The position numbers and the translations under genes were made by a program. DNA of 64,000 nt. Origin: Chelativorans multitrophicus. GTDB lineage: Bacteria > Pseudomonadota > Alphaproteobacteria > Rhizobiales > Rhizobiaceae. Numbering within the stretch: position 1 is the first letter of the stretch; every line of letters starts with the position of its first letter. The notes under the pieces were generated by a model. It did no database searches, was not told the origin of the DNA, and saw only the letters and a list, made by a program, of their open reading frames with translations. The stretch is from contig NZ_JAAAPL010000001.1 of the NCBI RefSeq assembly GCF_011317445.1, positions 1,426,001 to 1,490,000 on the forward strand. Reading direction: 5' to 3'. Below are positions 3,501 to 24,530 of the stretch, one piece after another.

Positions 3501-3600
3501 TTCGGCTTTCCATTCACGGTATTCCATTTTTCCATGCCGCTATCTGCGCGCACGGCGTTACCGCTCGACGGTTGCACAATAAACCAACTTCGAGTCATCC

Positions 3601-5274: not shown

Positions 5275-5322
5275 GACGAGATCTGTTCGTCGCCTGACAC
5301 CACTTATTTCAAGGAATTGACT

Positions 5323-7238: not shown

Positions 7239-7523
7239 TCAGCCAATATTGCGTTGCATTGACGCGATCAAGTTGAACTTGTCTGCCAGCTTGCTCAGAA
7301 GGCGCTCCGATTGTGCGTTTGCGATTGCGCGATCAGCCGAGAACGTGATTGTTCTGATCTGTTCGTCTACCAGTTCTTTTGTCAGAGTGTGGCTGTTCGA
7401 AGCTGTTGCAATCATATTTGCGCGAAACTGCGCCATCGCTTGCTGGACAAGCACTCGAATTACTTCCTGTGTCGGAGTGCTTTGCAATGCCGCCCCATCG
7501 GCAATCGTCTGAATTCCTTCCAT
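7239..7523 (-). CDS. Small orphan protein at the distal end of the T3SS cluster (94 aa)
   Basis: Not recognised. The ATG at 7523 is preferred over a GTG at 7535 because of the GAGAGAAAAT spacing. The protein is helical and polar with no signal peptide and ends LADKFNLIASMQRNIG. Rhizobial T3SS loci often end with small secreted or chaperone genes, and the size would fit a needle subunit, a chaperone or a pilus component. I do not see the conserved polar C-terminal half of known needle proteins. It follows the 139-residue gene across a strong hairpin, so they probably share a transcript. Confidence 0.5.
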   Translation of the reverse strand: MEGIQTIADGAALQSTPTQEVIRVLVQQAMAQFRANMIATASNSHTLTKELVDEQIRTITFSADRAIANAQSERLLSKLADKFNLIASMQRNIG

Positions 7524-7551
7524 ATTTTCTCTCACTGTACTCGCAGTAAAT

Positions 7552-7580
7552 CCGTGCCACGGGACGAACCCGCGGCACGG
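7552..7580 (-). other. Strong stem-loop between two small T3SS-locus genes
   Basis: CCGTGCC (7552-7558) pairs with GGCACGG (7574-7580). Inside it CGGG (7560-7563) pairs with CCCG (7569-7572), giving an 11 bp stem with one mismatch and a 5-nt loop ACGAA. There is no following T-run on either strand, so it is not a standard terminator. It lies 15 nt after the stop of the upstream gene and 28 nt before the next start. It may protect the 3' end of the upstream message or set a differential expression ratio. Confidence 0.6.
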
Positions 7581-7595
7581 AAGAACGATCGGTTG

Positions 7596-8015
7596 TTACG
7601 CCGCCGCCGTTTGAGAAAGTTTCTGCGTCGAGCTCTTCAACCAGCTCTGCGCATCTTCCTGCGCCGTCGTAAAGATCTCCTTGGCGTTGTTGGTCAGCGC
7701 GCGGTTATGCTGCATCTGCTGGGCAGTCTGCTGCTGCGCGTGCTCCATGGCATTGTTAAACATGGCTTGGTCATGGCTAACCTGCATATGCCGAATGATC
7801 TGGTTTTCCTGGTCATCCTGCAACATCTTCATCGTCTGCTGAAGACGATTGCTGTCTGCGACACCAGAAGCCGCATTACAGCCTCCCGACCATGCACCAG
7901 ACGCCTTGTTTGCCGCACCCAAAGCGCCCCTGGACATGCCCCCGACTGCATCGGCAACCGCGCCAACGATATGCCTGACCACTCCACCACCACCAAACAA
8001 AGCAACAGGACCCAT
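7596..8015 (-). CDS. Gly-rich / Gln-rich orphan protein, possible secreted component (139 aa)
   Basis: Not recognised. The start is set at ATG 8015, 6 nt after GGAG; in-frame ATG 8027 and TTG 8033 lie upstream without a good ribosome site. The N-terminal half is Gly/Ala-rich and weakly hydrophobic (VALFGGGGVVRHIVGAVADAVGG). The C-terminal half is a polar, Gln/Asn/His-rich amphipathic helix (NAMEHAQQQTAQQMQHNR), probably a coiled coil. A hydrophobic stretch plus coiled coil without a Sec signal is the build of T3SS filament or translocator proteins. Its place next to sctV makes a secreted extracellular part plausible, but homology is not shown. Confidence 0.5.
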   Translation of the reverse strand: MGPVALFGGGGVVRHIVGAVADAVGGMSRGALGAANKASGAWSGGCNAASGVADSNRLQQTMKMLQDDQENQIIRHMQVSHDQAMFNNAMEHAQQQTAQQMQHNRALTNNAKEIFTTAQEDAQSWLKSSTQKLSQTAAA

Positions 8016-8338
8016 AATGTTCTCCATAATCAATTGGTTTTAATGCGAATATGCTTGGCCAAAACCGAAACATGGCCAATGCACGCGAATGAATATCCTT
8101 GGCCTAGGAACACAACCGCCGCCCCTATCAGCGTCTAAAGGCGTCATCTTCGGACATTCAATTCCGCCCTAGCGAGGGACATCCGGACCGCTCTCAGACC
8201 ATCGAGTAGTGATAAATCTAAACCTGAAAATGCCTCCTTATTAAACTTTCGATTTCATCAACTTTCAAGATATACTTCCGATTTAGTAAATATCCTCTTC
8301 AAATTTTCTGATATGCTGACTGGCACTGAGTGACAGGC
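8016..8338. promoter_or_regulatory. AT-rich intergenic region, likely promoter for the two small - strand genes
   Basis: About 320 bp, much richer in A/T than its neighbours, between the sctV stop and the 139-residue gene. On the - strand near 8234-8240 there is a perfect AAGGAGG ribosome site with no ATG, GTG or TTG at usable distance, so it does not start a visible gene. The composition and length suggest an independent promoter for the downstream pair. No clear -35/-10 pair can be assigned by eye. Confidence 0.4.
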
Positions 8339-10414
8339 CTACAGTTCCCCTGCGTCTTCGCCAGGTTCGGCCAACAGGAAGCCGACCGGATAAATCACCG
8401 TTTCAGGCGTGATCTCCTGATAAGCCAGTACCGGCAGGTGTATGCCGTGCTCATAAAGGATGTTATGCATCGCCAGGCGGACATCCTGCTGCATGATCAG
8501 GACCGGATCGTGACCGCGCCGGAATTCTTCCCCACAGATCTGTTTGGCCTGTTTGGCGATATAGGCTGAGATTGAAGGCTCCAGAATGAGAAAATTGCCC
8601 TCCTCGGTGTTTCGCATTCCCTCGCGCATGAGAGATTCAACAGTCGGCGAAACCACCACCACCGGCAGGAAGCCATCGGCGGCAAACCGCTTCGTAATGA
8701 AATCAGCGATTTCGATACGCACCTTCTGGGCCAGATAGCCGGGGTCCGGCCGCTTCTGCGACCATTTCAGAATACCCTCGAGAATGCGCACCCGGCTGGT
8801 GACGGGGATGCGCTCGCGCAACAGGTTCCGTATAACGCCGGCGATTTGATTGTTCGATGCCGCTTCCCGCAGATCGCCAACGAGCGCCGGATTGTTCGTT
8901 TGCACTTCATTCAGGATGGCTGTTATGTTCTGCAGGCTGGCCATAACGTCGAGCCGTTCAACTGCTACCCGCTTCAGGTGCATCAGCAGTTGCTCCATCG
9001 GGCGCCAATAGACGATGTTCTCTTCAGCTAGCCTTTGCTCCTGATCGGTGGGGACAAGCGCCCCCTCCCTGCGGCCAAAGCCGCTTAGCCACGGGATTCC
9101 GAGGGCATCGAGATAGGAAGTATGCGCCTTTACGAACAGGCTATCGGCCCTGAAGATTCCGCAATCGGCGAGCTCCTGGTTTACATATATCTGGTATGAG
9201 TGCGGCGATCCCTCGTCCACTTCAAACAGCCAATAGCCGGTCGGTATTCCATATTCCTGTGCGATGCTTATCCTGACGGCTTCGAAAGCGGAAAAGAACG
9301 CAGTGACATCCAGCTTATATATCTCCTTTGGAAGAATGAGCCTTACCGCTTCTTTCGCTCCGGTTCGCATGGCAATTTCGGCACACTGCCGTTGAAGCAG
9401 ATCCAGGCGAAGGGACCAATCCGTCTGCGCGCTCAGCACGTCCCGGTGTTGCCGGCGTATCGTCCAAATTACCCCCCCCGTCATTGCTGAACCAACAGAA
9501 ACGAAAATCCATGTTGGAAAGCCGGGGACCAAACCAAACAGGGCGATGATGATGCCGGCCATGACGATCGTGCGGCGGTTGGCGACGAACTGCTGAGCGA
9601 TCTCCGCGCCCAGATCCATGCCGTTGGGGTTGGTTACGCGCGTAACCATATTGCCCGCGGCAACGGAGATCAGAAGCGCGGGGATTTGCGCCACCAACCC
9701 GTCGCCGACCGTCAGGAGCGCGTAGAGGCTCAAAGCCTCGCCGAAACCCACCCCCCGCTGGGCCATGCCTATGGCCACGCCTCCCACAAGGTTTATGACA
9801 GTGATGACAAGGCCGGCTATCGCATCTCCCTTGACGAATTTCATTGCTCCGTCCATGGCGCCGAAAAGCTTGGCTTCGCGCTCCAGGTTCTGTCGCGCAT
9901 GCCTTGCATCGAGCTGGTCCATATTGCCGGCCCGGACATCCGCATCGATGCTCATCTGCTTGCCCGGCATGCCGTCCAGCGTGAAACGCGCGCCCACTTC
10001 GGCGACGCGATCGGCGCCTTTTGTGATGACCAGAAACTGCACCACCGTGATGATGAGGAACGTCACCAGCCCGACGGCCAGATTGCCCCCCATCGCCACC
10101 TGGCCGAAGGTCTCAACAATGCGGCTAGCATCCCCCTCAAGCAGAATAAGCCTTGTGGTGGAGATGGAAATCGAAAGCCGAAACAGCGTCGTCACCAGAA
10201 GCAGCGCCGGAAAGGTGGAGAACTGAACCGGATTGTGCATCTGCAGCGACATCAAGAGAATGATGATGGACGCACTGACATTCAGCGTGATCATCAGGTC
10301 CATCGCTGCGGGCGGCAACGGCAGAATGACCATCAATAGGACGAGCGCGAATACGAGGACGAGAAAGACGTCCTTCTGCCGCGCTATTGCGGCCAAGGGC
10401 TTTATGAGATTCAT
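8339..10414 (-). CDS. sctV: T3SS export gate protein SctV (FlhA/HrcV/RhcV family)
   Basis: 691 residues, normal for the family. The N-terminal half carries about eight membrane helices. It includes the conserved cytoplasmic FHIPEP-region segment running from RVAEVGARFTLDGMPGKQM through IDADVRAG to LEREAKLFGAMDGAMKFVKGDAIAGL. The C-terminal half is the cytoplasmic domain that forms the nonameric export ring. The start follows AGGAAACGA. It is the last core apparatus gene of the cluster, 21 bp after sctC1. The sequence appears intact. Confidence 0.96.
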   Translation of the reverse strand: MNLIKPLAAIARQKDVFLVLVFALVLLMVILPLPPAAMDLMITLNVSASIIILLMSLQMHNPVQFSTFPALLLVTTLFRLSISISTTRLILLEGDASRIVETFGQVAMGGNLAVGLVTFLIITVVQFLVITKGADRVAEVGARFTLDGMPGKQMSIDADVRAGNMDQLDARHARQNLEREAKLFGAMDGAMKFVKGDAIAGLVITVINLVGGVAIGMAQRGVGFGEALSLYALLTVGDGLVAQIPALLISVAAGNMVTRVTNPNGMDLGAEIAQQFVANRRTIVMAGIIIALFGLVPGFPTWIFVSVGSAMTGGVIWTIRRQHRDVLSAQTDWSLRLDLLQRQCAEIAMRTGAKEAVRLILPKEIYKLDVTAFFSAFEAVRISIAQEYGIPTGYWLFEVDEGSPHSYQIYVNQELADCGIFRADSLFVKAHTSYLDALGIPWLSGFGRREGALVPTDQEQRLAEENIVYWRPMEQLLMHLKRVAVERLDVMASLQNITAILNEVQTNNPALVGDLREAASNNQIAGVIRNLLRERIPVTSRVRILEGILKWSQKRPDPGYLAQKVRIEIADFITKRFAADGFLPVVVVSPTVESLMREGMRNTEEGNFLILEPSISAYIAKQAKQICGEEFRRGHDPVLIMQQDVRLAMHNILYEHGIHLPVLAYQEITPETVIYPVGFLLAEPGEDAGEL

Positions 10415-10434
10415 TCGTTTCCTAATGGGGTCTG

Positions 10435-11076
10435 TCAGGGTATTTTCGACAACCCCGGGCTGAACTGGCCTTCGGCGGGCATATCGGCCTTGGAATGCAG
10501 AACCGGCGTCTCAACCGAGCCCCGCAAAACGGCAATGTGAGTCCGGTCCGCGCTCTCCAGAGCCTCTACCGTCTTCTTCACATCCGAGACATAGGCTGGA
10601 GGCCCGGAAACGATGAGGATCTTGCCCTTTAAATCGAATCCGTGCTTGAACTTCGGCTGATAAAGACCAATTCGTGAAAGCGCTGAGATGATACGAGCGC
10701 CATTGTTTTTCTGCAACGAAAAGACCTCTGTCTGAACGCTGCTCGATGGTGCGACGTGCAGTATGGTGCCATCGAAATACCATACGAAACGATATTCGGC
10801 CGCCAGATGATCGAGATAGGCCTGAGGGGACAGACCCGGCGGCGTATTCGCGCCCGTCCGCCCCTTGATCCCCGGCGCTATATCGGCCGCTATGCCAAGA
10901 TTGAGCGCGAAAAACCGGATCGCCTCGCCAACCTCCTGGTCCATGCAGACATAGTCATAAACCGTATCGGCATTGGGCAAACCAGGCGGGCCTCCGAGCG
11001 CTGCCTGCGCAGGCAGCAAGGACGCTTGGGCCAGGCCTAAAAGCAAAAAAGCAAGCAATGACAAAAGGTACTTCAT
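10435..11076 (-). CDS. sctC1: T3SS secretin N-terminal subunit SctC1 (RhcC1/NolW type)
   Basis: 213 residues from the ATG at 11076, which gives a clean Sec signal peptide (MKYLLSLLAFLLLGLAQASL); a GTG at 11103 is in frame but lacks a ribosome site. The mature part matches the periplasmic N0/N1 modules of T3SS secretins: YVCMDQEVGEAIRFFALNLGIAADIAPGI, then the PQAYLDHLAAEYRFVWYFDGTILHVAP block. It stops before the membrane-embedded secretin core. In rhizobial T3SS this domain is known to be a separate gene from the core, as here. It would form the periplasmic end of the outer-membrane ring. Confidence 0.85.
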   Translation of the reverse strand: MKYLLSLLAFLLLGLAQASLLPAQAALGGPPGLPNADTVYDYVCMDQEVGEAIRFFALNLGIAADIAPGIKGRTGANTPPGLSPQAYLDHLAAEYRFVWYFDGTILHVAPSSSVQTEVFSLQKNNGARIISALSRIGLYQPKFKHGFDLKGKILIVSGPPAYVSDVKKTVEALESADRTHIAVLRGSVETPVLHSKADMPAEGQFSPGLSKIP

Positions 11077-11108
11077 TTTTCTAAGCCGCCCGAATTGCGG
11101 CACAACTT

Positions 11109-12461
11109 TTAGTAAAGGAAGCCCGCGGGGCCATAGATGCGAGCCGAGGAAAAGGGTTTACTCTTGTTGGACAGTATAAATTCGATATTGCTTCGCTGGA
11201 GACCGGTTATATCGGCAGCACTGGGCTTGTCCGATGCACCGAAATAGGGCGTGACCACCACTGCAATGTCCCGGTTGTGAGCGCTGACGCTTCCATGCCC
11301 CGCTAAGGAACGCAGAACCTCGCCCACGACGCCCCAGTTGCGGCGCGGCTGGTCGTGTGCGCCGGTGGTGTCCATCCGCGACAGTCCAGCCAGGATAAAA
11401 CTTTCTCCGCTGTGCAGGTCCACATTCGTATTCAGCTTCCGCGCAGCAACGTAGGGGACGGGGCCGCTGGAGAACTGAACGGTTTGCCGTGGCTCGGAAA
11501 TTTCCGCCTCGATGGCCAGACTGACCTTACCGCCGGGCAGCAGTTGAGGTGTGAAACCAATATTGAAACCCACAAACTTGTAGTCGACGCCAAATGAGGC
11601 TGCACCGTTGTTAACGGAATGCGTGGGAATCGCGATCTCTTCACCGGCCATGAACGACGCTTTTTTTCTGCCGATAGTCGTCAATGTCGTGTCCGAAAGA
11701 ATGGTCGCCACGCCGTTGTCCAGCAGCAACTTCATGAATTTATTTACATCATGTCCGCGTCCACGGATGTCGCCGGTCCTGTAGTGATTGCTGGGAGACA
11801 ATGCCGACCAGTTCACGCCATAGGTCTCCAGCCGATCACGGGAGACCTCCATGAATTTTATGTCGAGCCTTATGATTGGGCTTTCGGCCACCGCAATCTC
11901 GTTGATCAGCACGCTCTCGGGAATGCTCTTCTCCAGGCTCTCTATCGCTGCATCGTATGTCTGTTGGTCTGGGACGGTGCCCGTGGCGTAAACGCTGCCT
12001 CTGGCGGAACGGATCGTAATCCGCGCCGCGGGAAAGCGTTGCGAGAGCATGCGCTGCATCTCATCGAGATTGTAGATCACAACCATGTCGTACTGAAACA
12101 ATGTTCTTCCGCCAAGATCGACGCCCGTTACCGTGGTCTCGCCTGCGCTCTTGCCGTAGATGAAATGGGCTTCGCCGGGGGATTCTTTGATATCAGCGAT
12201 CGTCGGATCCGCGACGAACAGACTTTCCGCGTTTTCAGTCCCGCTCAATTGCAGGCCTTTTCCGATCTCGATGATAAGCCGTTGGCCATATGCCGGGCTT
12301 GCTTGCGCCCAGGTGCAAAGCAACAACGCCAGCAATGAAAGCAGTCTTGTAAAAAAGACGAGCGCCCCCGACCGGAAAGTGTACAAAAATGCGCGCGCGC
12401 TACAGTGCCGTGCGTCTATCAGAACGCACGGAGGATGCTGCAGATCATTGAGTCTAGACAT
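11109..12461 (-). CDS. sctC2: T3SS secretin core SctC2 (RhcC2; CpaC/RcpA-like)
   Basis: 450 residues from ATG 12461 (GGAAG 5 nt upstream); TTG 12542 and ATG 12464 are alternatives. A hydrophobic signal (LLSLLALLLCTWAQASPAYG) precedes a pilus-secretin N domain (QRLIIEIGKGLQLSGTENAE, FIYGKSAGETTVTGVDL), a BON-like segment (TGTVPDQQTYDAAIESLEK) and the secretin core with ATILSDTTLTTIGRKKASF and GEEIAIPT. The N domain plus BON layout is that of Tad/CpaC secretins rather than classical YscC. It should form the outer-membrane channel together with SctC1. The 30-odd residues before the signal are odd and the true start may be later. Confidence 0.88.
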   Translation of the reverse strand: MSRLNDLQHPPCVLIDARHCSARAFLYTFRSGALVFFTRLLSLLALLLCTWAQASPAYGQRLIIEIGKGLQLSGTENAESLFVADPTIADIKESPGEAHFIYGKSAGETTVTGVDLGGRTLFQYDMVVIYNLDEMQRMLSQRFPAARITIRSARGSVYATGTVPDQQTYDAAIESLEKSIPESVLINEIAVAESPIIRLDIKFMEVSRDRLETYGVNWSALSPSNHYRTGDIRGRGHDVNKFMKLLLDNGVATILSDTTLTTIGRKKASFMAGEEIAIPTHSVNNGAASFGVDYKFVGFNIGFTPQLLPGGKVSLAIEAEISEPRQTVQFSSGPVPYVAARKLNTNVDLHSGESFILAGLSRMDTTGAHDQPRRNWGVVGEVLRSLAGHGSVSAHNRDIAVVVTPYFGASDKPSAADITGLQRSNIEFILSNKSKPFSSARIYGPAGFLY

Positions 12462-12560
12462 CATGGCTTCCGATAACCGAAGCCGGTGCTCGGATTTATG
12501 CGCTAAGGTCGAGCAGTTCATCTGCGACATCAAATCGGTCAACTTCTCATTTCCAGCCTA

Positions 12561-13106
12561 CTAGGCGCCCGTACCTAGCCTAAAATGGTTCGGGCGCTTC
12601 CAGTTCTGTTGCGACAATATCTGCATCAGCCGCATAAAAGGCCGCAGGGCCACATGAGTGGCGATTTCGGAGACCTCCATTTTACTGGAGAACAGTACGA
12701 GCCGGTCATGCAGTTGCCTGGCCGCGGGCGCCTGCGACACCGGCTCTCCATCGGCTACTGGATATGCTCCCTCGCGGCCATGCAACCGCTCCAGAAACTG
12801 CGCTGAGTTTCTGTCATGATCGACCGGCGCGACTTTTTGCGAAGCCTTACGCGGCGTTTCCAAGGCTGCGGCCAAGTGCGATTGTTCCCTCACCTCTCCG
12901 GTTCGCCGCGGACCGGCCGTAACGGCCATCGCCTCGGCTGAATCGCCGTCATAAGCCTCCCCCAGCATGGCCGCATAGCTGCTGGAGGGCTCGTCGATGG
13001 ACCAGGAAACCTTCTCCTGCGGCTTTACCGCCGCAGGGCGCACTTCGGAAACACGTGTAAACCGCCCACCGGCTTCCGTGTCGAGCTTATTGACTTGTGT
13101 ACTCAT
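12561..13106 (-). CDS. Unassigned T3SS-cluster protein, possible SctP-like regulator (181 aa)
   Basis: Starts at ATG 13106, overlapping the stop of the preceding gene as TGATG. The protein is hydrophilic, mostly low complexity and probably disordered through residue 110. A more ordered C-terminal part follows (ARQLHDRLVLFSSKMEVSEIATHVALRPFMRLMQILSQQNWKRPNHF). Disordered, Pro/Ser/Glu-rich proteins with a short C-terminal domain, encoded among the core genes, are often needle-length regulators (SctP), otherwise missing here. No diagnostic motif is seen. Confidence 0.6.
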   Translation of the reverse strand: MSTQVNKLDTEAGGRFTRVSEVRPAAVKPQEKVSWSIDEPSSSYAAMLGEAYDGDSAEAMAVTAGPRRTGEVREQSHLAAALETPRKASQKVAPVDHDRNSAQFLERLHGREGAYPVADGEPVSQAPAARQLHDRLVLFSSKMEVSEIATHVALRPFMRLMQILSQQNWKRPNHFRLGTGA

Positions 13107-13417
13107 CAACTATCCATCTTTCCCAGATAGGCCCTGATTGCACTTTGCCCTTCCGCTCCGGAATGGCCGCTCAGCATGGCAAGACGCGCTCTCACATAGG
13201 CAAAATTGCGGGTATCGCGGCGTGCTTCACCGGCCACGGCAGCTGCGTCCTCCAACTCGCCGGCAAGAAACAATGCATAGGCCAGAACCTCACGGAAACG
13301 CTGATCTTCCGGAAAAAGCGCCAGCCCGGCACGGCCATAGATGACCGCCTTGGCAATGAACTGGGCCTTTAAGCTAAAAGCAGCCAGCATCAAAAGAATG
13401 TCTGCTGTTACGTTCAT
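13106..13417 (-). CDS. Short TPR-like T3SS protein, possible SctY-type chaperone (103 aa)
   Basis: ATG 13417 is chosen; TTG 13423 is a longer alternative. The whole protein is two to three helical repeats of TPR type (AKAVIYGRAGLALFPEDQRF, EVLAYALFLAGELEDAAAVA, YVRARLAMLSGHSG). It resembles in size and repeat pattern the SctY/SctG families, which bind SctX or the needle subunit in the cytoplasm. It lies between a TPR lipoprotein and the unassigned 181-residue gene, with a 1-3 bp overlap, so it belongs to the T3SS transcript. The family assignment is tentative. Confidence 0.6.
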   Translation of the reverse strand: MNVTADILLMLAAFSLKAQFIAKAVIYGRAGLALFPEDQRFREVLAYALFLAGELEDAAAVAGEARRDTRNFAYVRARLAMLSGHSGAEGQSAIRAYLGKMDS

Positions 13418-13517
13418 AAACAATCTGCTCGATAAATATTGGCAGCGAACTCACAGGAACGGGAAATCGGTCGTTATCTGAAAATCAAAAAAACAGATGA
13501 GAACGCATTCGAATGGC

Positions 13518-14273
13518 TCAGTGCACCGGCGGCAGCTTGGATATCTGCGCGAAATTTGCCTTTGCCTGGCTTTCCGTCAGGTCGAGAAGTGCTGTGTCCA
13601 TCGCTCTATGGCGATCGCCCGCCAGATACTGAACCAAAGCCAAGTTCTGGCGGATGGTGGTGTTGTCCTGGTTCGAGCGGAATAATTCCGCCATTGGCGA
13701 ATAAGCTTCCCAAGCCCGCCCAGAAAGAGCCAGCGACAGCGCACAGTTGTTGAGGGCCTTCTCGTCAGAAGGAGCGTAAGCCAGGGCAGCCCTATAAAAC
13801 TGTTGCGCCAGATCATGGTGGCCCTCCAGATCGTGAGCTATGCCCATTGCGTTCAGCGCCTCCAAACTGTTGGGCGACACGCGAAGGATTTCCTGCAGAA
13901 AGACCTTTGCTCCTTGCGGATTGTTCCGCGCCAATTCAACTCGGGCGAGCCCCAGCAGACTCTCCATTCGCGCCCCAAGATCGGCCGCTTTGCGGTAATG
14001 GATTGCCGCCTTTAAATATGCCTTCTGACGGAAATAGGCATCCGCCAGGCCCAAAGCGGCGACGCTCGAATGAGGGTTGTCCGCGGCGATTGCATCCAAT
14101 AGGGCATAGGCCTTCTCAAAGTCGCCGTAGCCCAGCATAGTCTCGCCGACCGAGATTTGCGAAAGAACACTTGTCCCGTTCGTGTTGGGGCCTGAGCAGC
14201 CTGTCAAAAATAGGAAACCAGCAAACATCATGCATCTGAAGAGCAGGCGCTCAATAGATCTCGCCGCTATCAT
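13518..14273 (-). CDS. TPR lipoprotein, TadD / Y4yS-like
   Basis: 251 residues from ATG 14273, which has AGGGGA upstream; the frame stays open to 14426 but has no better start. A lipoprotein signal ends in the lipobox LTGC (Cys about residue 26). The mature protein is built of TPR units, for example AALGLADAYFRQKAYLKAAIHYRKA and NSLEALNAMGIAHDLEGHHDLAQQFYRAAL. TadD lipoproteins act as pilotins for RcpA/CpaC secretins in Tad pili, and rhizobial T3SS loci carry a similar gene (y4yS). Two genes away lies the CpaC-like sctC2, so a pilotin role is a reasonable inference. Confidence 0.82.
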   Translation of the reverse strand: MIAARSIERLLFRCMMFAGFLFLTGCSGPNTNGTSVLSQISVGETMLGYGDFEKAYALLDAIAADNPHSSVAALGLADAYFRQKAYLKAAIHYRKAADLGARMESLLGLARVELARNNPQGAKVFLQEILRVSPNSLEALNAMGIAHDLEGHHDLAQQFYRAALAYAPSDEKALNNCALSLALSGRAWEAYSPMAELFRSNQDNTTIRQNLALVQYLAGDRHRAMDTALLDLTESQAKANFAQISKLPPVH

Positions 14274-14578
14274 TCCAATCCCCTGTTGTACGGCGCGAGA
14301 AGCGATGCACCCAAACGAAACATGGCTCCAGTGCCAGGACGGACGCAACATGCTCCCACGCGCAGGCCGGCCCAAATCCAACTGCCTGAACAGCCGGTTA
14401 GACTCGCTTACGATCAGCCACAACACTACGCTAGCAACGACATCGACGAGCTGCTAACTGAATGTTTGGAGAGCGAATATCTCAGTTCCGTCACAAGTGC
14501 GCGCGCATGTGAACCGCGTTCTGGTTTACTCGAAGGATATCCACACAAAATCTGACTGCTGATCGCACGCACCGGCTG

Positions 14579-16410: not shown

Positions 16411-16412
16411 TG

Positions 16413-16676: not shown

Positions 16677-16715
16677 TGTGCATCCTCCTGTGGTTCTCCC
16701 AGATGAGAGGACGCA

Positions 16716-17378
16716 TCATCGCGCGTAGCTCAATACGAGATTGTGGAGCAGAAGAGCCCAGCCGTCGGCGGCGACAAACAACAGTATCTTGATGGGCAGA
16801 GACACCAGCATGGGCGGCACCATCATCGCCCCCATGGCCAGCAAGATATTGGAAACCACCATATCGACCACAACAAAGGGCAGGAAAATGAGAAAGGCGA
16901 TCTGAAAAGCCCTTGTAAGTTCCGATGTCACATGTGCGGGTAAAAGGATGAAAACGTTGTCGGTTGTAATTTGCCCATGCAGTGTTTCAGGCCACATCTT
17001 CCTGGCCGCATCCATGAAAAACTGGAGTTCACGCGGAGAGGAAAACTGCTTTAGGTAACCGGTAAACGCCTCAGAAACGACAGAATACAGCTGGGAGACA
17101 TTTTCCCAGCCAGTAAAGCCCAATTGCTGCTGCTGCACCTGGGTGATGATGGCATTCCCGACCGGGACCATCACGAACACCGTCAGCGTCAAGGCGATGG
17201 AGTTGATCACCAGCCCCGAAGGGGCCTGTTGCACGCCGATTGCATTGCGCAACAGCATCAACACGATGGATATCTTTGTGAACGCCGTGCCCATTACCAC
17301 GATAAACGGAATGAAGCTCAGCGCCATTACAGCGATGATGGTCGGCAGAATAGCCGGGAAGTTCTCAACCGCCGTCAT
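16716..17378 (-). CDS. sctR: T3SS export apparatus SctR (FliP family)
   Basis: 220 residues from ATG 17378; a longer frame to 17471 would add an untypical 31-residue leader. Family features are FTKISIVLMLLRNAIGVQQAPSG, the SLALT-like hydrophobic helix after it, and the C-terminal PFVVVDMVVSNILLAMGAMMVPP. The start lies inside the end of sctQ, a 14-bp overlap. Five SctR copies form the core of the inner-membrane pore. Confidence 0.95.
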   Translation of the reverse strand: MTAVENFPAILPTIIAVMALSFIPFIVVMGTAFTKISIVLMLLRNAIGVQQAPSGLVINSIALTLTVFVMVPVGNAIITQVQQQQLGFTGWENVSQLYSVVSEAFTGYLKQFSSPRELQFFMDAARKMWPETLHGQITTDNVFILLPAHVTSELTRAFQIAFLIFLPFVVVDMVVSNILLAMGAMMVPPMLVSLPIKILLFVAADGWALLLHNLVLSYAR

Positions 17379-18429
17379 TGTGCTTCGTGCCTGCCCAATG
17401 ACTAAGCTGCACGCCCATATGATCGCCGATCTGCACGAGATAGCCCCGGCCGGCTGGTGCGCCATTGGCAAGAATGGTCACTGGTCGAGTAAGGTCGACG
17501 TTCAAGCGAAGCGTCGCTCCCGGACCTAATGCCCGCAATTCCTCAAGCGTAATCCGTTGGGTCGAAAACAGGAAATCCAAGCGCACGGGCAGATCCTCAA
17601 TCGGATCTGCCAATGGTGGTTCGTCGTAAATCGCGCCGGCGCCAAATTCGGACCAGTCACTATCAATTTCGTTCATTATAATGCTTTCCGCACTTTCAAA
17701 AATCTCTGCTGCGCCTGTTGAAATATCCAGTTTTGCAGTGAACCGGGCGATATCAGGCACCTCTATCGCCACAGGCAGCCGTCCCCCTTCGATTGCACCT
17801 GCAAGCAGCGCATCGCCCGCTTTGAGCGTGCTATAGACGGCCGATGTTACTGTACGGCCGGGAAGGTGGAGCCGGCAGCAAAAACCCGGATCGAAATCGC
17901 CGATCGGGCCATGGGAGCAGAGCCGCAAGATCTCCGTCACCCTGCCATCTTCGAATCCGGAGAATGCGAGCGACATGTGGAATTGATGGGACCCTACCGC
18001 CACGACGGCGTGAAGCGTTTCGAGCAACGGCCCAGCCACGCGGGGGCTTGCCGCGCCTAGCCGCGTATCGACCTTAACCACCCTTTCAAAAGCCATGGCC
18101 GGCAAAAAGGCTTCCAGCACGATCACCGCGCGCCATTCCGTGGGCAAGCTATCGTCTGCTTCATCGCGCCAGCCCGGAAGAAGAAAATCGCTCAGGAAAT
18201 CGACCAGCGCAGGCTCGGGACGAAGCCGTATGGTGCCGAAATCCGCCGTGACTTCCAGTTCGACGCGCGTTCCCTCATCCATGGGCGGGTGCGTGAAATA
18301 GACGTTCAGCGCAGGCGCTCTCCCGTGGGCCTCCCCGCGTGGCGGCACGATCCATCTCGACCCCACCAAGCGGTTAAGAAGCGCCGCAATTTCCGGCGAG
18401 ATGGCGGGCAGAGCGGGAAATTCGAGCAT
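17365..18429 (-). CDS. sctQ: T3SS sorting-platform protein SctQ (YscQ/HrcQ, SpoA domains)
   Basis: 354 residues, normal for the family. The C-terminal 75 residues are a SpoA domain (DLPVRLDFLFSTQRITLEELRALGPGATLRL, ending PAGRGYLVQIGDHMGVQLSHW). The N-terminal part is the poorly conserved platform domain. SctQ forms cytoplasmic pods with SctK and SctL. I did not find a strong internal ribosome site for a separate C-terminal product, but did not search all positions. The gene lies 2 bp downstream of sctO. Confidence 0.93.
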   Translation of the reverse strand: MLEFPALPAISPEIAALLNRLVGSRWIVPPRGEAHGRAPALNVYFTHPPMDEGTRVELEVTADFGTIRLRPEPALVDFLSDFLLPGWRDEADDSLPTEWRAVIVLEAFLPAMAFERVVKVDTRLGAASPRVAGPLLETLHAVVAVGSHQFHMSLAFSGFEDGRVTEILRLCSHGPIGDFDPGFCCRLHLPGRTVTSAVYSTLKAGDALLAGAIEGGRLPVAIEVPDIARFTAKLDISTGAAEIFESAESIIMNEIDSDWSEFGAGAIYDEPPLADPIEDLPVRLDFLFSTQRITLEELRALGPGATLRLNVDLTRPVTILANGAPAGRGYLVQIGDHMGVQLSHWAGTKHNDGG

Positions 18430-18431
18430 CT

Positions 18432-18911
18432 TCAGGCCCTAGCTCTCGCTGACAGTTGATCGCAGAATTCTTCGAGGGCCGCTTCCTCGTGCAAGTTCGC
18501 TTCGTTTATCTTCCTCAGGCGCAGATGATCGTGCAGATGTCTGCCTTTGTTGAGCTTGAGGGCGCTTGCGAGGCGATTGCGGCCTGCGATGCGGGCACGT
18601 TCTTTTGCCTTGGCAAGCTGGTCCTGGCATTCGGCACGCCGATCGGCGAGCTCCCGGGCCTTCTCCTTCGTCCTTTTCAGTGTCTCCTCGACGGCCAAAA
18701 GGTCGTTTACGGAAACCTTTCTGTTGAGAAGCGTGGTCAGAAGATCGATCTCGAGTGTCCGTGTCTCCTCGAGATAGTTTTCTATCGCCTTCTCGGCCGC
18801 GTCCAAAGACGACAGCGCCTCCGAAGCGGCGGCCTGTTCCGCGTTTTCTGCTTTGAGCATGCGGTCAAGCCGGAGCTGGCGGAGCGCGACGATCCGCGAA
18901 AAATCAAGCAT
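18432..18911 (-). CDS. sctO: T3SS central stalk SctO (YscO/FliJ-like coiled coil)
   Basis: 159 residues from ATG 18911 (a TTG at 18917 is the other choice), overlapping the end of sctN by 8 bp. The whole protein is charged and helical with heptad character, for example [20 protein letters not shown] and [20 protein letters not shown], which fits an antiparallel coiled coil. SctO inserts into the SctN hexamer and contacts SctV. Identification rests on length, coiled-coil nature and position between sctN and sctQ rather than on conserved residues. Confidence 0.88.
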
Positions 18912-20193
18912 GGCCAACTGCCCGCTTCAGAGCAATAACGGTTTCCTCGAAGCTTGAAAACTCGTTTACGCCCTGGCGCAGAAACGCATCCAGCGCCGTC
19001 CTGCGGGCCAGGGCCTCATCGGCCAGTGCATCGGCACCCTTCGAATACTCGCCGATCTTTAGCAGCAGCTCTATTTCCTGGAGTTTCGACATGAGCCCGC
19101 GCGCCTTGTGAACGGCTTCCAGATGGTCCGGAGAAACGATGCGGCTCAGGATACGGCTGGTGCTGGTAATGACATCGACCGGAGGATAGTGACCCGCTTC
19201 TGCCAATTTCCGCGAAAGGACGATATGGCCGTCGAGAAGCGAGCGCACCTCATCGGCAACGGGCTCGTTCATATCGTCGCCTTCCACCAAAACCGTGTAG
19301 AAAGCGGTGATCGAGCCATCGCCGCTGAGGCCCGCGCGCTCAACAAGACCCGGAAGCAGCTCGAAGACGGACGGAGGAAAGCCGCGCCGGGTCGGAGGCT
19401 CCCCTGCCGCCAGGCCTATCTGCCGTTGCGCGCGGGCAAAACGGGTTAAGCTGTCCATGATCAGCAGCACCCGCTCGCCTCTGTCGCGGTGGAATTCAGC
19501 GAGTGCCGTGGCCGTGTAGGCCGCCTTCACCTGCTCGATCGCAGGGCGATCCGATGTGGCCACCACGACAATGGATTTGGCAAGACCTGTCGGCCCCAGC
19601 TGATGTTCGAGGAATTCGCGCACTTCGCGACCACGCTCGCCAATCAGCGCAATTACGCAGCGGTCGTATTCGGCGAAACGCACCATTAGGGAAACCAGCG
19701 TCGATTTTCCCCCGCCGGCGGCGGCAAAAATGCCCATGCGCTGCCCCTCGCCACATGTCAGGGCACCATCCAAAACCCTCACTCCAAGAATGAAGGGGCG
19801 GTCGATAGTCGGTCGCAGCATCGGATTGGGAGCCGTCCGATGGCCGGGATAGAACGCGCATGATGTCACGCTCGGGCCGGCATCTATCGGCTTGCCCATC
19901 GCATCGATCACCCGTCCCGTCAGTTCCTCGCCAACCGGCACTTCAAATGTACTCATCAGCGGCTCAATCGTGGAGTTGTGCGATATGCCGGCCGTGCCTC
20001 CGTATGGAGTCAGGATGGCTTCCCCCTGATCGAAGCCGACCACCTCAGCCAGGATTGGATCGCCATTGCTGCGCGAAACCGCGCAGATTTCCCCCACGCA
20101 GAAATTGCCCGCCGCCCGCACCACAGGCCCCACGGCCTTACTGACCCGCCCGCGGCGCCTGAACGGCCGCTTCAATTCGGGTTCCCGCGTCAT
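18904..20193 (-). CDS. sctN: T3SS ATPase SctN (FliI/YscN/HrcN family)
   Basis: 429 residues. The P-loop [12 protein letters not shown] lies at about 154-165, slightly different from the commoner AGSGVGKST. Walker B is [16 protein letters not shown], and the segments [33 protein letters not shown] and [19 protein letters not shown] are typical. It forms the hexamer that detaches chaperones and unfolds substrates. The start overlaps the sctL stop as TGATG and the stop overlaps sctO, so translation is coupled along the operon. Confidence 0.97.
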
Positions 20194-20819
20194 CAGTTTT
20201 CACCGCCGGTTCTAACGACGGCCCCCGCGATATGAAGCGCCGCGATCATCTCCTCCACCACGACGGTGAGGCTTAAATCGATAACGTCAGGACCGGCATA
20301 AACGAGGCAATCATGCTCGCACATGCGGGGGTTGGGCTCGGGCCTGATCGGCACGACATGCTCGCCGCGTCTTCTTACGGCAGCAATGGCTGTCGTGATC
20401 GCATCCAGATGATCCGGATGCACCATGATGACGATTTCCGGACGACCTTGAAGTTCACCCAAGACTTCATGCAGCACGTGCGACAGCCACTCCTCCTTCG
20501 GCATGCGTCCAACTATCTGCTGCAGGCAATGACGGAGACGAGATTCCTGATCGGCTTGAAGCCGACCACGCTCTTCGTCCAGTCGCCGGATCGCTTCGGA
20601 AAAGCTGAAAAGCGCCTCGGCATAGCCGGCTTCACGCGCTTTCCTGCGAATGTGCCCACTGCCCTGGCGGGCGCGGCGCAAATATTGGGCGGCCTTGCGT
20701 CTGGCCGCAATTTCGATCTCCTCGGTCTTCCTCAGACGGGCGAGATCTTCCGCCTTGAGAACGCCGTCAGGCGGAAGGGCGCCTGCATCGAAAAATGCCA
20801 ATTTTTCAACCTTTGGCAT
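20193..20819 (-). CDS. sctL: T3SS stator SctL (NolV/HrpE family)
   Basis: 208 residues from ATG 20819; the frame extends to 20867 but the internal ATG matches the coupled layout, overlapping the sctK stop by 14 bp. The N-terminal half is a charged helix ([20 protein letters not shown]). The C-terminal half is a compact domain with [11 protein letters not shown] and [16 protein letters not shown], like FliH/V-ATPase E subunits. SctL links SctN to the SctQ pods. Confidence 0.9.
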
Positions 20820-21423
20820 CGCAGTACTCCAAGGCCAGGGCGAGGTAGCGCAGGAAGAATGCCTCATCCGGATCGTCCGGAGCGAACGCGACCGGCTCGC
20901 AAAGGTCGCTTTGCCTCAGTCGCAATTCCAAACGCCGCCGATGGGCGTGCGGCAAAACACCAAATAAAAGCCCCCTCACCTTCTGCTCATAGAGCGCCAG
21001 CAATTCGCATGAGGCCGTATCGAGAACCTGAAGACTGGCGAAGATGGGAAAGCGCGTCTTATCCAAACTCAAAAGCAATGCCTGGTCACCGCACCAGGAA
21101 GCGATCTCCCTAAGCACCGCGCCGCTGGTGGTGGTTAGAATGGATTTGTGATTCATTGTTATCGTCATGACCCGGCACAATTCCGATAATTGCTCCGGGC
21201 TTTTCACCGTCAGCTCGGCAAAGAGTAGCACTCTTGCTTGCGGCAGCTCTTCAGGAAGTGGGGGCAAGGCGGAGAGGATCCGGCGGCTAACAGCGGTCCT
21301 CAGAAAACGGCAGGATGCCAGGCTGGCAGCTATACCGGCATTTTGCAGGCCAAGCGCCGCGGGCAGCTTATCCGGCAGTATGTACTCCAATGGCGCCGCA
21401 TCGAAGGGGCAAGCAGGCTTCAT
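20806..21423 (-). CDS. sctK: T3SS accessory platform protein SctK (NolU family)
   Basis: 205 residues, between sctJ and sctL exactly as nolU is in rhizobia. It overlaps sctJ by 4 bp and sctL by 14 bp. Sequence conservation in this family is low. The helical protein with MTITMNHKSILTTTSGAVLREIASWCG and a Leu/Arg-rich middle (ALYEQKVRGLLFG) is consistent. SctK caps the cytoplasmic pods under the inner ring. Assignment depends largely on position. Confidence 0.82.
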   Translation of the reverse strand: MKPACPFDAAPLEYILPDKLPAALGLQNAGIAASLASCRFLRTAVSRRILSALPPLPEELPQARVLLFAELTVKSPEQLSELCRVMTITMNHKSILTTTSGAVLREIASWCGDQALLLSLDKTRFPIFASLQVLDTASCELLALYEQKVRGLLFGVLPHAHRRRLELRLRQSDLCEPVAFAPDDPDEAFFLRYLALALEYCDAKG

Positions 21424-22220
21424 CCGACGCGCTCCTTCCGGCGCGAGCGCAAGTAGGTTCCAACGCTTAGTGCTGCCGCCGCGCCAAGAACCAGGCTGAA
21501 AACCGCTATTCCGCCGGCCAAAAGGACGGCACGCTCCTCACCGCCCTTGCGGATGGCCACCCCGCCCAGGGATACAAATTCGATGGTGGGCGGGGGAGGT
21601 GGATCTACAGGCAACACGACCACGCCAACCTTTTCGTACTGAACGTTTTCGATGCTGTGGGCGACAAGCTGCCTTATCCGCGGAACGAGCTCAGCGGTCA
21701 CGGCACTCCTGTTTACGATTGCAAGGACGGAGGCGCTGGGCGGCGGCACTTCATCGAAAGGTGTGGTTTTGCGCGGGTTGGCTATTTGCACTTCCGCCAA
21801 AACCACGCCGGGGATGGAAGACACCATCTTCGACAATTCCTGCGATAGCGCGAAGTTCAGGCGTGCCCACTCCTTTACCGGGCTTGTCACAAGCCCGTCG
21901 CCGGTAAACACTTTGCCGATCGTCTCGAATTGAGGTCGCGGCAGGCCGAAACTTTTAAGAAGGTCCACGGCCTGGCCAAACTGCGCCTCGTCCACAAGCA
22001 GCGTGATGTAATTATCCTTGTCCGCCTGCTTTGTGGCATCGATATCGTACTCCAGAAGCTTTCCGAGCATGTCGTTGGCTTCCTGCTCGCTCAACCCGGA
22101 ATAGAGGGGCACCTTGCAGGCGGATAAAAAGGCGCAGAGCGCAAAAGCGAGGAGCACCGCGCCAAGCCGGCTCAGGCGGGGACGAGAGCAATCCAGCGGA
22201 GGAAAGGCTAGGGAGTGCAT
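21420..22220 (-). CDS. sctJ: T3SS inner-ring lipoprotein SctJ (NolT/YscJ/PrgK family)
   Basis: 266 residues from ATG 22220, with TGATG overlap to sctI; a GTG at 22223 is possible. The lipoprotein signal ends in the lipobox LSAC (Cys about 35). The YscJ ring-building domain is clear: LYSGLSEQEANDMLGKLLEYDID, KSFGLPRPQFETIGKVFTGDG, then SQELSKMVSSIPGVVLAEVQI. A C-terminal membrane helix follows (AVLLAGGIAVFSLVLGAAAA). SctJ forms the inner-membrane ring with SctD. Confidence 0.96.
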   Translation of the reverse strand: MHSLAFPPLDCSRPRLSRLGAVLLAFALCAFLSACKVPLYSGLSEQEANDMLGKLLEYDIDATKQADKDNYITLLVDEAQFGQAVDLLKSFGLPRPQFETIGKVFTGDGLVTSPVKEWARLNFALSQELSKMVSSIPGVVLAEVQIANPRKTTPFDEVPPPSASVLAIVNRSAVTAELVPRIRQLVAHSIENVQYEKVGVVVLPVDPPPPPTIEFVSLGGVAIRKGGEERAVLLAGGIAVFSLVLGAAAALSVGTYLRSRRKERVG

Positions 22221-22621
22221 CACTGACTCGACAGCAGCTGCTGCACGCCGCTTATCACTTTGCCGATCGCCTTTATGGACAATTCGAGCCGGATTTTGTC
22301 GGCGTTGTACGCCACCTTGTTGCTGATGTATTCGCGATTGTCATTGTGGATCTGGATGATCTTATTCTTGGCGGCTTCCAGTACTCTTCTCATTTCAGGC
22401 GTCTGATATTGCGGCTGCTCTGCCCAGCGGCGGAACTGTTCCTGAAGAGGCTTGGGCAGGCTCATCAGCGGGCCGGAAAGCTCCAACGCATTTTCGATAT
22501 CGCCGACAATCGTGCTTTCCTGCTGATGCAGGCACTCGACCAAACGGTCTTGCAAGCCGCTGATGCCGGTCGGACAAGGTTCGGCTGGCGGCGGTGCGCT
22601 CAATGTAAAGGACGTACTCAC
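22220..22621 (-). CDS. sctI: T3SS inner rod SctI (NolB-like)
   Basis: 133 residues. The N-terminal half is Pro-rich and variable. The C-terminal helix (RLELSIKAIGKVISGVQQLLSSQ) has the pattern of inner-rod proteins, which end in a conserved amphipathic GVQQLL-type helix. The position directly before sctJ matches nolB in rhizobia and yscI in Yersinia. It overlaps the HrpB1-like gene by 4 bp at its start. SctI is secreted and connects the needle to the export gate. Confidence 0.85.
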   Translation of the reverse strand: MSTSFTLSAPPPAEPCPTGISGLQDRLVECLHQQESTIVGDIENALELSGPLMSLPKPLQEQFRRWAEQPQYQTPEMRRVLEAAKNKIIQIHNDNREYISNKVAYNADKIRLELSIKAIGKVISGVQQLLSSQ

Positions 22622-23073
22622 TGGAGGTCTCCCTTGCCGCTCGACAGCTGCCGAGGTTCACCGAACCCCAATGCGGCGGCACATTCGTCAACGACGATCT
22701 GCACGGTTTCCAGGGCCGCTTCTGTTCGAAGCAGGCCCTCCTGAAGATACGAAGTGCCCAGCACATAAGCGCGCTCGAGCTGACCATCCTGCTGCAGGAG
22801 ATAAAGATGGAAGGCGAGCGCCTCATCACGGTTTACTGCGGCTTGAAGAGCACCCGCTTCCTCAAGGAGTTTGATGCCGGCCGCTACGTTCCCGGTGGTA
22901 AAGAGATACATGGCTTCGATCAGGAAGCCTGCGGCGTTTTCGGGGCGAACGTCCTGGACCAGCCTCCAGAGAGATCTCGCGTGCCTGCCGAGGCCGAGGC
23001 GCGTCGCCAATGAGGCGAGGTTGCCAAGAATAAAGATGTCATCGCTCGAAAACTCCGCTTCCGGTGTTCTCAT
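22618..23073 (-). CDS. HrpB1/HrpK-like TPR protein of the T3SS (SctG-type co-chaperone?)
   Basis: 151 residues with TPR character throughout: LGLGRHARSLWRLVQDVRPE, EAMYLFTTGNVAAGIKLLEE, LAFHLYLLQQDGQLERAYVL. This is the pattern of HrpB1/HrpK and YscG-like proteins. YscG-type proteins hold the needle subunit before export; here no needle gene is adjacent. Start and stop both overlap neighbours by 4 bp (sctD and sctI), so it is firmly in the operon. Exact family is tentative. Confidence 0.75.
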   Translation of the reverse strand: MRTPEAEFSSDDIFILGNLASLATRLGLGRHARSLWRLVQDVRPENAAGFLIEAMYLFTTGNVAAGIKLLEEAGALQAAVNRDEALAFHLYLLQQDGQLERAYVLGTSYLQEGLLRTEAALETVQIVVDECAAALGFGEPRQLSSGKGDLQ

Positions 23074-24152
23074 TTCACAACAACCTTTTGCCGCTGCCCG
23101 TCGATCTCTACGAGAAGGTGTTGCCCGGTGACCTCGACCAGCCTGCTGTTCTGCCCCAACTGCTCACCGGGGCGAACAACGGTCCCGTCGTCGGTCACCA
23201 CATAGGGGTAGGCACCGGGCCACAGCGCCACGACGCGCTTAGCCATGGTATCGAGATCGGCTGGCGAGGCGGGCTGAAAACGCACTTCGGCGATGCCCGG
23301 CACGTCCGCCTTCAGGATTCCGGCAAGCCTCTTGCGCAGCTCCCGGTCGCAGATTGCCGATAGCGTGATAACGCCATCCTTGTTGCCGAGTACACGTGCC
23401 TCGACGCCCAGACTTGCAATTATCAGCTTGGCGGCCTCAGCGATTTCGCTGTCGACGAAGATGTCGACCGCGAGCGGCGTTCGGGTGTCCGTCAGCTTGG
23501 CTTGCACACGCTCGCGAACCGCCGCATCGCTCGCCCGGAGCGTGGCGCTACAGTTTCCGCCGCTGCAGCCCAGCCGCTCTATCCTGGCCCCCGGAAATTG
23601 CAGTATCCTGGCGAGCGCCGCATCATCCGGACATGCCTGCCCCGCGACCGGCGCAGGATCCGTTCGGCCCGCTTGTTCTTGATCAGCGCGGGCCATGGTG
23701 GAGCCTTCAAGCTCACGCGTAAACAGCGAATTCCCGATTCCTGCTAAAACAGCAAGGGCCGCTGCGGCCAGGGCGATTTTGCGTGAAACGCGCCTTTTGA
23801 CCGGCTTGCCTGCAGACTCCCCCCGGTCAGGTTCCTCCGCCTTCACGCCATCGAGTTCAAGGAAGATATCCGCGATGACCAGTCGATCGCCCGGACGCCA
23901 GGGCGTCCATTCCTCCTGACTTAGCGGTAAATTGCGTTGTGCTGCGTGGTTGAAAAACGTGGCCGCCGATCCGGGTTTCAATAGAACCGAAGCGCTGCCC
24001 TCCCCCACCTTGAGCATCAGATGCTCCGGGGCGATCTCTGAGTGAATCAACGCTATTTCACAGTTGAAATCAGAGCCGAGGCGGTATTCGCCTGGATCGA
24101 GGGAGAAAAATCGATCCTCACAGCCGGCTCTCGATAATTTCGCAACGATCAT
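23070..24152 (-). CDS. sctD: T3SS inner-ring protein SctD (YscD/HrpQ family)
   Basis: 360 residues from ATG 24152, which has GAGAGG at good spacing; the frame extends to 24230. Order: cytoplasmic FHA-like domain (about 1-100, SLDPGEYRLGSDFNCEIALIHSEI), one membrane helix (about 125-145), then periplasmic ring modules (VKAKLTD-like and VFVDSEIAEAAKLIIASLG segments) and a C-terminal beta domain. SctD forms the outer of the two inner-membrane rings and binds SctK/SctQ on the cytoplasmic side. First recognisable structural gene of the operon. Confidence 0.9.
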   Translation of the reverse strand: MIVAKLSRAGCEDRFFSLDPGEYRLGSDFNCEIALIHSEIAPEHLMLKVGEGSASVLLKPGSAATFFNHAAQRNLPLSQEEWTPWRPGDRLVIADIFLELDGVKAEEPDRGESAGKPVKRRVSRKIALAAAALAVLAGIGNSLFTRELEGSTMARADQEQAGRTDPAPVAGQACPDDAALARILQFPGARIERLGCSGGNCSATLRASDAAVRERVQAKLTDTRTPLAVDIFVDSEIAEAAKLIIASLGVEARVLGNKDGVITLSAICDRELRKRLAGILKADVPGIAEVRFQPASPADLDTMAKRVVALWPGAYPYVVTDDGTVVRPGEQLGQNSRLVEVTGQHLLVEIDGQRQKVVVK

Positions 24153-24242
24153 TTCGCCTCTCTGGCAAGCCCTCCCCTCTGGCCGGAAATATTTCATCGG
24201 ATAGACTGCCGCTAGCCTACCGAGCTCCAAAGATGTTTATGC

Positions 24243-24530
24243 TCAGCGTTCTTCCCTGCCGGTCGTTTGCAGCACCCGCCGGAAATCCACATGCTTGAAC
24301 CGATCGAGCAGTTCCAAGGCGTCGCCGATCACTTCCACAGCGCGCAGGAGATGGGCGGGATTCTCGTTCCGCAGAACTGTTTTTGAGCTGTCGTGCAAAA
24401 ACATCTGTCGGCGTGCTTGAAGATAGCGGACAAGCGCTTGCCTATTGCCTCCGCCGCGATCGAGAATGAACGCGTCGAAGCCCGCACCCTCCTGCGAAGA
24501 AGAGAAAAGGCCATTGTCCAAGAGGTTCAT
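24243..24530 (-). CDS. First gene of the T3SS operon, unassigned small protein (95 aa)
   Basis: Not recognised. Charged and helical, with no signal peptide: GNRQALVRYLQARRQMFLHD in the middle and HLLRAVEVIGDALELLDRFKHVDF near the end. It lies 90 bp upstream of sctD. In Ysc-type loci a small chaperone (sctE) and the needle (sctF) lie beside sctD, and this size would fit either. It lacks the needle pattern I would expect. The 190 bp upstream should contain the main T3SS operon promoter. Confidence 0.6.
   Translation of the reverse strand: MNLLDNGLFSSSQEGAGFDAFILDRGGGNRQALVRYLQARRQMFLHDSSKTVLRNENPAHLLRAVEVIGDALELLDRFKHVDFRRVLQTTGREER

Follow-up and report, generated by a model that had tools for sequence, protein, structure and literature searches.

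Among the known systems closest to the one treated here are the Rhc type III secretion systems (T3SSs) of rhizobia, whose subgroups have split secretins and an SctY-like open reading frame (ORF) beside rhcV (PMC3574062), and in which Y4yS has been tied to RhcC2 levels (PMC4311626). Some Rhc-II/III systems are without nop appendage genes and meliloti, S. saheli and S. terangae without known ones, SctP is given as not identified in rhizobia (PMC3973906), and Table 1 of PMC3574062, as we read it, marks SctW with a dash for Rhc-I, NGR234 Rhc-II and R. etli. Here we describe a T3SS cluster at positions 7239-24530 of a 64,000-nucleotide stretch of the Chelativorans multitrophicus genome (contig NZ_JAAAPL010000001.1, positions 1,426,001-1,490,000; hereafter the window). 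Judged from its genes, the cluster encodes a real and complete T3SS with an intact export core, belonging to a little-described Rhc-like lineage. We consider it fairly probable that this lineage is a deep one with an ordinary core, and that its outside parts are fast-evolving, lineage-specific proteins encoded within the cluster.

All nine core non-flagellar T3SS proteins (C, J, N, Q, R, S, T, U and V, as listed in PMC3973906) are present in the window. V, C2, U, T, S, R, Q, N, L (HrpE) and J exceed the curated Pfam cut-offs, C1 (Secretin_N), O and D fall below them, and the assignments of K, I and D lean also on position and on conservation in relatives. The complete core and ring set proposed in a first-pass annotation, made from the sequence alone, is borne out by Pfam for most genes, but K has no match, I only a weak one and D stays below cut-off. 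For the sctI candidate, SctI is the best hhalign partner compared, with 25 C-terminal columns that end together (25% or 6% depending on direction); it has no family match, and its hidden Markov model (HMM) scores against a self-built SctI profile, from which the weakest rod matches (L215-L216) were left out, lie below those of shuffled sequences. The core ORFs are open, SctN has a Walker A motif and SctJ a lipobox, and the system is probably complete and working. The host genome holds one other SctS/FliQ-family gene, with an FlhA-like gene 0.2 kb away, which we take to be the flagellar set.

On the minus strand, read from 24530 to 7239, the order is 24243, D, the tetratricopeptide repeat (TPR) gene 22618, I, J, K, L, N, O, Q, R, S, T, U, the TPR lipoprotein gene, SctY, 12561, C2, C1, V, B and A. 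The arrangement is operon-like: between 24243 and U, and again between SctY and V, neighbouring gene ends overlap or are at most 40 bases apart, and a gap of 305 bases separates V from B; LysR, o3140, o3601 and o5317 lie beside the cluster on the plus strand (2215-6858). The ORFs were found where the first-pass annotation had placed them, small differences (8015 versus 8033) being alternative starts, while its list of parts omitted the TPR gene at 22618-23073, the LysR-o3140-o3601-o5317 block and the lost NPTH site of SctU.

The window SctV is 78% identical to that of genome G006, 62% to that of a Leisingera plasmid, 58% to that of Martelella alba, 57% each to those of M. mediterranea, genome G329 and a Parvularcula metagenome-assembled genome (MAG), and 51% to that of the Hyphomicrobiales MAG G043; the next best full-length SctVs are about 38% identical, and some others show 42-51% identity over their N-terminal halves. 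The eight lineage rows group as a single clade (SH-aLRT 100) in a tree of 69 SctVs, with 1.84 changes per column on its stem. A search of 394 sampled genomes of the family with SctC2, scoring few candidates in each genome, found lineage matches besides the own genome in G120, G199 and G329 (37-42%), of which G120 and G199 share a genus code and are probably the two Martelella; 35 of the 39 matching genomes scored at most 145 bits versus 248-298 for the lineage. The Leisingera sp. S132 system (plasmid NZ_CP083557) has counterparts of A, B, SctY, 12561, 24243 and 22618, the small ones carrying a hypothetical annotation, and differs in being plasmid-borne, in two blocks and next to an M85 protease gene. 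Our literature search on Martelella or Leisingera with T3SS, over the portions of sources available, found no publication on this lineage. Other T3SS types, which are Mesorhizobium-like or Aureimonas/Roseibium-like by their place in the SctV tree, occur in four further genomes of the host genus (G013, G008, G007 and G001; L006-L009).

The first-pass annotation had reported that every gene for the outside structure or the gatekeeper was missing or too divergent to see. Indeed, the Pfam models PF09392 (needle), PF04888 (SseC) and PF07201 (HrpJ/SctW) have no match up to E 10 in the whole host genome and none above cut-off in G006, G329, M. alba or the Leisingera plasmid record, so that SctF, an SseC-type translocator and SctW are not recognisable there; the genome-wide negative covers these three families, the LcrV, YopD and EspA families not having been searched genome-wide. 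Sub-threshold matches in the relatives (best E 0.29) are at the level also given by control genomes, where PF09392, PF04888 and PF07201 give matches below cut-off in 7, 7 and 5 of 14, respectively. A separate locus for these parts, which would have spoken against the annotation, was looked for with these profiles and not found; the relatives' loci contain conserved small genes, and the profiles gave no needle match above cut-off in the relatives searched. Of the two explanations that had been offered, unrelated proteins or genes encoded elsewhere, the latter is rejected for the three families, which favours outside parts made of proteins that profiles cannot link to known families. The five small genes left unassigned in the expected positions (A, B, 12561, 13106 and 24243) have no needle or translocon match, as had been said, but 13106-13423 is recognisable as SctY (2.8e-9). 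None of the five is a chance ORF, since ORFs homologous to each occur in five or more places within the relatives' loci.

Two of these genes, A and B, are candidates for the external structure. A was seen once each in seven of the eight lineage loci (window, G006, Leisingera, G329, M. alba, M. mediterranea and Parvularcula) and B was recognised in six of the eight, with one copy in each of the window, G006, Leisingera, G329 and M. mediterranea, four in Parvularcula and none in M. alba, counts in which the rows that built the HMMs match by construction. With an A-only HMM, two of nine B proteins (20.1 and 16.9 bits) exceed the maximum of 1800 shuffles (13.5), and with a B-only HMM, three of seven A proteins exceed the maximum of 1400 shuffles (8.4), two of them at 21.1 and 19.4 bits and that of the window at 14.5; the remaining cross-scores are at most 8.5 bits or not listed. 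On these sequence comparisons A and B are paralogues. AlphaFold predicts for A a helix at residues 17-57, a turn and a helix at 62-93, with a predicted local distance difference test score (pLDDT) of 77-87 over most of the helices and 66 at the end, and this predicted structure has the small, all-helical two-helix form of an SctF subunit. None of the seven A proteins matches PF09392, and their scores with an SctF HMM (needle matches L175-L177 left out of the profile) lie below those of shuffles; as SctF by profile, both A and B failed the profile and HMM tests. The checks named by the first-pass annotation, structure prediction and HMM search of the small genes, have thus yielded a two-helix hairpin for A but no SctF profile match. 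Gene A is put forward as the needle from its predicted two-helix architecture and its position only, a tentative candidate with slightly less than an even chance of being right.

A further character of the lineage lies in SctU. In Xanthomonas, cleavage of HrcU at the NPTH site contributes to late-substrate secretion (PMC3040844). The site is replaced in all six lineage systems having sctU (M. mediterranea and Parvularcula, in whose analysed contigs sctU does not occur, stand outside the six). NP is likewise absent from NGR234 I and II, Bradyrhizobium barranii, R. johnstonii, P. zundukense and Paracoccus sanguinis and present in R. gallicum pRGM101a and Mycetohabitans, and the SctU of R. etli p42d ends before the site. 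In a panel of 30 other T3SS genomes, our own choice from 76 loci (L041-L116), NP is present in the best SctU of 21 genomes and absent from that of nine; a Pfam needle match (E <= 0.01) occurs in the same 21 (20 above cut-off) and in none of the same nine, which are one related group. The association has a Fisher p of 7e-8, and since the genomes are related this is no test of independent events. Counted by locus, NPTH is found in 17 of 33 (Mesorhizobium albiziae included); among the other 16, L054, L067 and L082 keep NP, L106 is a fragment and 12 lack NP. That needle match and NP site occur together (21 with both, nine with neither) suggests that the missing needle is partly a trait common to related systems; it is not the peculiarity of this genome that it first seemed, the same match being wanting in nine of the 30.

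When the SctV rows without NP were held as a clade, p-AU (approximately unbiased test) was 0.393, and the held tree 1.05 log units lower, in a set of 21 rows restricted to measured labels, which omitted seven rows, namely the six with assumed labels and R. etli. With assumed labels for six of 41 non-flagellar rows (L038, L039, L064, L080, L083 and L088) and R. etli included, p-AU was 0.716 and the held tree 4.31 log units higher. In the free trees the NP rows are one side of a branch (97-98). Because uniting the SctVs without NP is not rejected, NPTH may have been lost once, at the base of the Rhc-like systems and this lineage. We found no publication that joins NPTH with RhcU and, among the titles and abstract openings listed, none about losing the site in this way, in a search that left subscription journals mostly outside, and the word NPTH is absent from the searchable text of two Rhc papers, PMC3574062 and PMC3973906.

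To the observed gene content, lineage, lost SctU site and A-B homology, the explanation we favour adds a working model. The export gate, ATPase, rings and split secretin would be ordinary and the outside parts encoded in the cluster: protein A (7239) would polymerise into a needle or pilus, and its paralogue B (7596) would serve as an accessory subunit or tip. SctY and an SctE/SctG-like pair (24243 and 22618) would hold early substrates before export, and o3601 and o5317, on the plus strand and linked to LysR, would be late substrates. Since SctU is without the self-cleavage site, the early-to-late switch must run without SctU autoproteolysis at NPTH. A bolder form, which we regard as somewhat unlikely, is that the conduit is a new, tandem-duplicating two-helix family unrelated to SctF, in a clade that lost SctU self-cleavage once and takes another switch route.

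Several findings weigh against this account. Profile and HMM tests give A and B no sequence link to SctF, SctI or the NGR234 NopA-encoding cluster, and the same hhalign set-up does link known SctI to SctF (78%), so it is not blind, the A alignment used there having seven rows only. With A as query, Foldseek finds nothing at E <= 0.001, and generic hairpins dominate the ranking, beside WXG100-like chains and the T3SS stalk protein CdsO; none of the 50 matches listed is a needle subunit, which excludes nothing. A, SctY and 12561 were not found in G043, which does have an ORF weakly similar to B (blastp 0.003-0.004) and another, 95 aa long, of fitting size, and M. alba is without B. R. gallicum pRGM101a and Mesorhizobium albiziae keep NPTH, so that not all rhizobial systems are without the site, and the free SctV trees do not unite all rows without NP, two changes being needed.

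The needle could instead be another protein of the cluster, either 24243 or the SctI homologue acting as both rod and needle, with A and B as early or middle substrates, for example a tip, pilus accessory or mini-translocator. Conservation of the 24243 gene extends over six aligned loci, that of G043 among them, and the gene lies next to sctD, on the side opposite to that taken by escF in R. gallicum; the N-terminus of some B proteins is Gly-rich or hydrophobic, and B varies in copy number. However, AlphaFold gives 24243 a low-confidence model (pLDDT 64) of several helices instead of two long ones and the SctF HMM scores its homologues below shuffles, and we judge this arrangement unlikely. 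Slightly less probable still is a machine that only exports, releasing A and B, with neither an effector-injecting needle nor a translocon. No translocon-like gene is conserved across the lineage loci, and in the listed stretches of M. alba and G329 the sole non-export ORF near the cluster with several strongly hydrophobic segments is a LytTR regulator; against such a machine stand the protease gene of an NFkB-p65-degrading family that adjoins the Leisingera copy and the homologue of o5317 near hrpK in another T3SS.

Decay of the cluster into a non-functional remnant is the least probable of these alternatives and, in our view, very improbable. Traces of erosion do occur among the relatives: sctR of G006 is split over two overlapping frames (L024:2372-3120), the M. 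mediterranea assembly yielded no SctN of the lineage, and G015 keeps LysR, o3140 and o3601 with a piece of gene A at a contig end (L219:7895-12085) in an assembly whose one SctV match is of flagellar rank and in which SctC2 gave no match at 1e-30. In the window, however, the core ORFs are open, and an SctV identity of 51-78% across genera indicates that this protein has been kept. Fast-evolving, in-cluster outside parts on an ordinary core remain our preferred explanation.

The plus-strand block supplies the substrate candidates. Besides the own genome, G015 is the sole match to o3601 in the 394 sampled genomes, and none occurs in the plasmids searched; similarity of o3601 to a Diphtheria_T-domain chain (E 0.21) was weak and was not used. 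For o5317 there is no Protein Data Bank (PDB) match at E <= 1, and its distant homologue (26% over 319 aa) lies near hrpK in a Pseudomonas antarctica T3SS locus. Adjoining the Leisingera T3SS is a gene that matches Peptidase_M85 (E 4.2e-45, L033:14098-14856), and we take its product to be of the NleC family. This gene suggests, indirectly, a non-plant target, and is the only hint bearing on the non-plant or non-standard target raised in the first-pass annotation. Near the Leisingera o3140 and LysR genes, a 543-aa protein (L036:9191-10822) without a Pfam match has a motif by which, to our eye, it presumably resembles ADP-ribosyltransferases; a Leisingera ORF at L036:10892-11521 on the minus strand appears antisense by eye and was not used.

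Among the other small genes, 12561 is conserved across six aligned loci; as SctX it was rejected, with no match to the SctX profile (built from 19 sequences) or the PF09474 family and a failed HMM test, and SctX is kept as a positional guess only. Of four homologues of 22618 scanned, that of M. alba weakly matches TIGR02498 EscG/YscG (0.014) and DUF1039 (0.0018), and the window protein has no NCBIfam match. PDB profile searches of A, 12561, I, 24243 and SctY gave low scores only, to proteins taken as unrelated, among them the flagellar chaperone FliS at 0.68 for 24243, and a PHROGs search with ten proteins gave nothing useful. Proteins of 53-55 aa precede FHA/sctD in Phyllobacterium and Paracoccus T3SSs (L152:17822-17989 and L150:17782-17943) and are possible unrecognised needles. 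A right-handed beta-helix protein is encoded at 24720-26570, directly upstream of the T3SS operon. Coordinates are collected in Table 1.

Table 1. T3SS cluster and adjoining plus-strand genes, in window positions
Feature	Position	Strand	Basis
LysR regulator	2215..3126	+	HTH_1 1.3e-12; LysR homologues in lineage loci
o3140, small protein	3140..3433	+	five homologues in lineage loci, four adjoining LysR; one more in G015
o3601, secreted-substrate candidate, 557 aa	3601..5274	+	homologues in G006, G015
o5317, secreted-substrate candidate, 513 aa	5317..6858	+	distant homologue in Pseudomonas antarctica T3SS locus
gene A, needle/pilin candidate, 94-98 aa, two-helix	7239..7535	-	7 of 8 lineage loci; AlphaFold
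gene B, A paralogue, Gly-rich N-terminus, 0-4 copies per locus	7596..8033	-	HMM cross-scores; hhalign A-B 57-61%
sctV	8339..10414	-	PF00771 4.6e-181; SctV trees
sctC1 (N part of split secretin)	10435..11103	-	Secretin_N 1.2e-5, below cut-off; blastp NGR234 NolW 2.7e-20
sctC2 (secretin, pilus-type N domain)	11109..12542	-	PF00263 1e-19; PF13629 1.4e-8; blastp NGR234a secretin 1.6e-34
12561 gene, 182 aa, possible SctX counterpart by position	12561..13109	-	poorly conserved N part, conserved C-terminus; SctY neighbour
sctY, TPR assembly chaperone	13106..13423	-	NCBIfam NF052415 E 2.8e-9, 37.5 bits versus cut-off 70
TPR lipoprotein, Y4yS-like	13518..14426	-	TPR models; blastp NGR234 Y4yS 2.1e-13; lipobox LTGC
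sctU without NPTH site	14579..15598	-	PF01312 1.1e-52; motif columns read HSDQ in alignment
sctT	15595..16410	-	PF01311 1.8e-43
sctS	16413..16676	-	PF01313 6e-18
sctR	16716..17471	-	PF00813 3.2e-58
sctQ	17365..18429	-	PF01052 9.7e-16
sctO	18432..18917	-	PF07321 1.8e-4, below cut-off
sctN	18904..20193	-	PF00006 3.8e-82; PF18269 4.4e-22
sctL	20193..20867	-	PF06188 2.3e-6
sctK, by position	20806..21423	-	no Pfam match; kept between J and L in relatives
sctJ	21420..22223	-	PF01514 1.8e-21
sctI (inner rod), by position and C-terminus	22220..22621	-	precedes sctJ; weak hhalign to SctI
22618 TPR protein, SctG-like (needle chaperone) by position	22618..23073	-	weak match in one homologue
sctD (FHA, forkhead-associated)	23070..24230	-	PF16697 2.6e-5; Y4YQ_C 5.5e-4; both below cut-offs
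24243 gene, 95 aa, helical, SctE-like co-chaperone candidate	24243..24530	-	first gene, before sctD

If the favoured explanation is right, the lineage would offer a second test case for the replacement of an injectisome filament, and early-to-late switching in NGR234-like systems without NPTH in SctU would become testable. With Ysc-type systems (Vibrio, Pseudomonas lundensis) the cluster shares the SctY chaperone and a possible SctE/SctG pair around sctD; the three Ysc-type panel genomes, G430-G432, have SctF, SctX and SctI matches and an NPTH SctU, whereas in the window lineage SctF and SctX were not found and SctI only weakly. The features in common with Rhc systems are a split secretin with a Tad-type C2, as in Rhc-I/II/III (S. 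fredii NGR234, R. etli), a Y4yS-like TPR lipoprotein with a lipobox, as in Rhc-I (blastp 2.1e-13), the gene order J-K-L-N-O-Q-R-S-T-U, no SctW (PF07201 above cut-off here in none of five genomes or records) and, as in NGR234 I and II, an SctU without NPTH. In contrast, SctV is only about 34% identical between the window and NGR234 I and II, no hit of the A, B and I HMMs in the clusters of NGR234 and R. etli improves on E 0.89, and the window lineage is a deep branch separate from Rhc I-III (joining it with Rhc-like rows is not rejected, p-AU 0.393 and 0.716), distinguished from them by an adjoining LysR gene and its lineage-specific A/B proteins.

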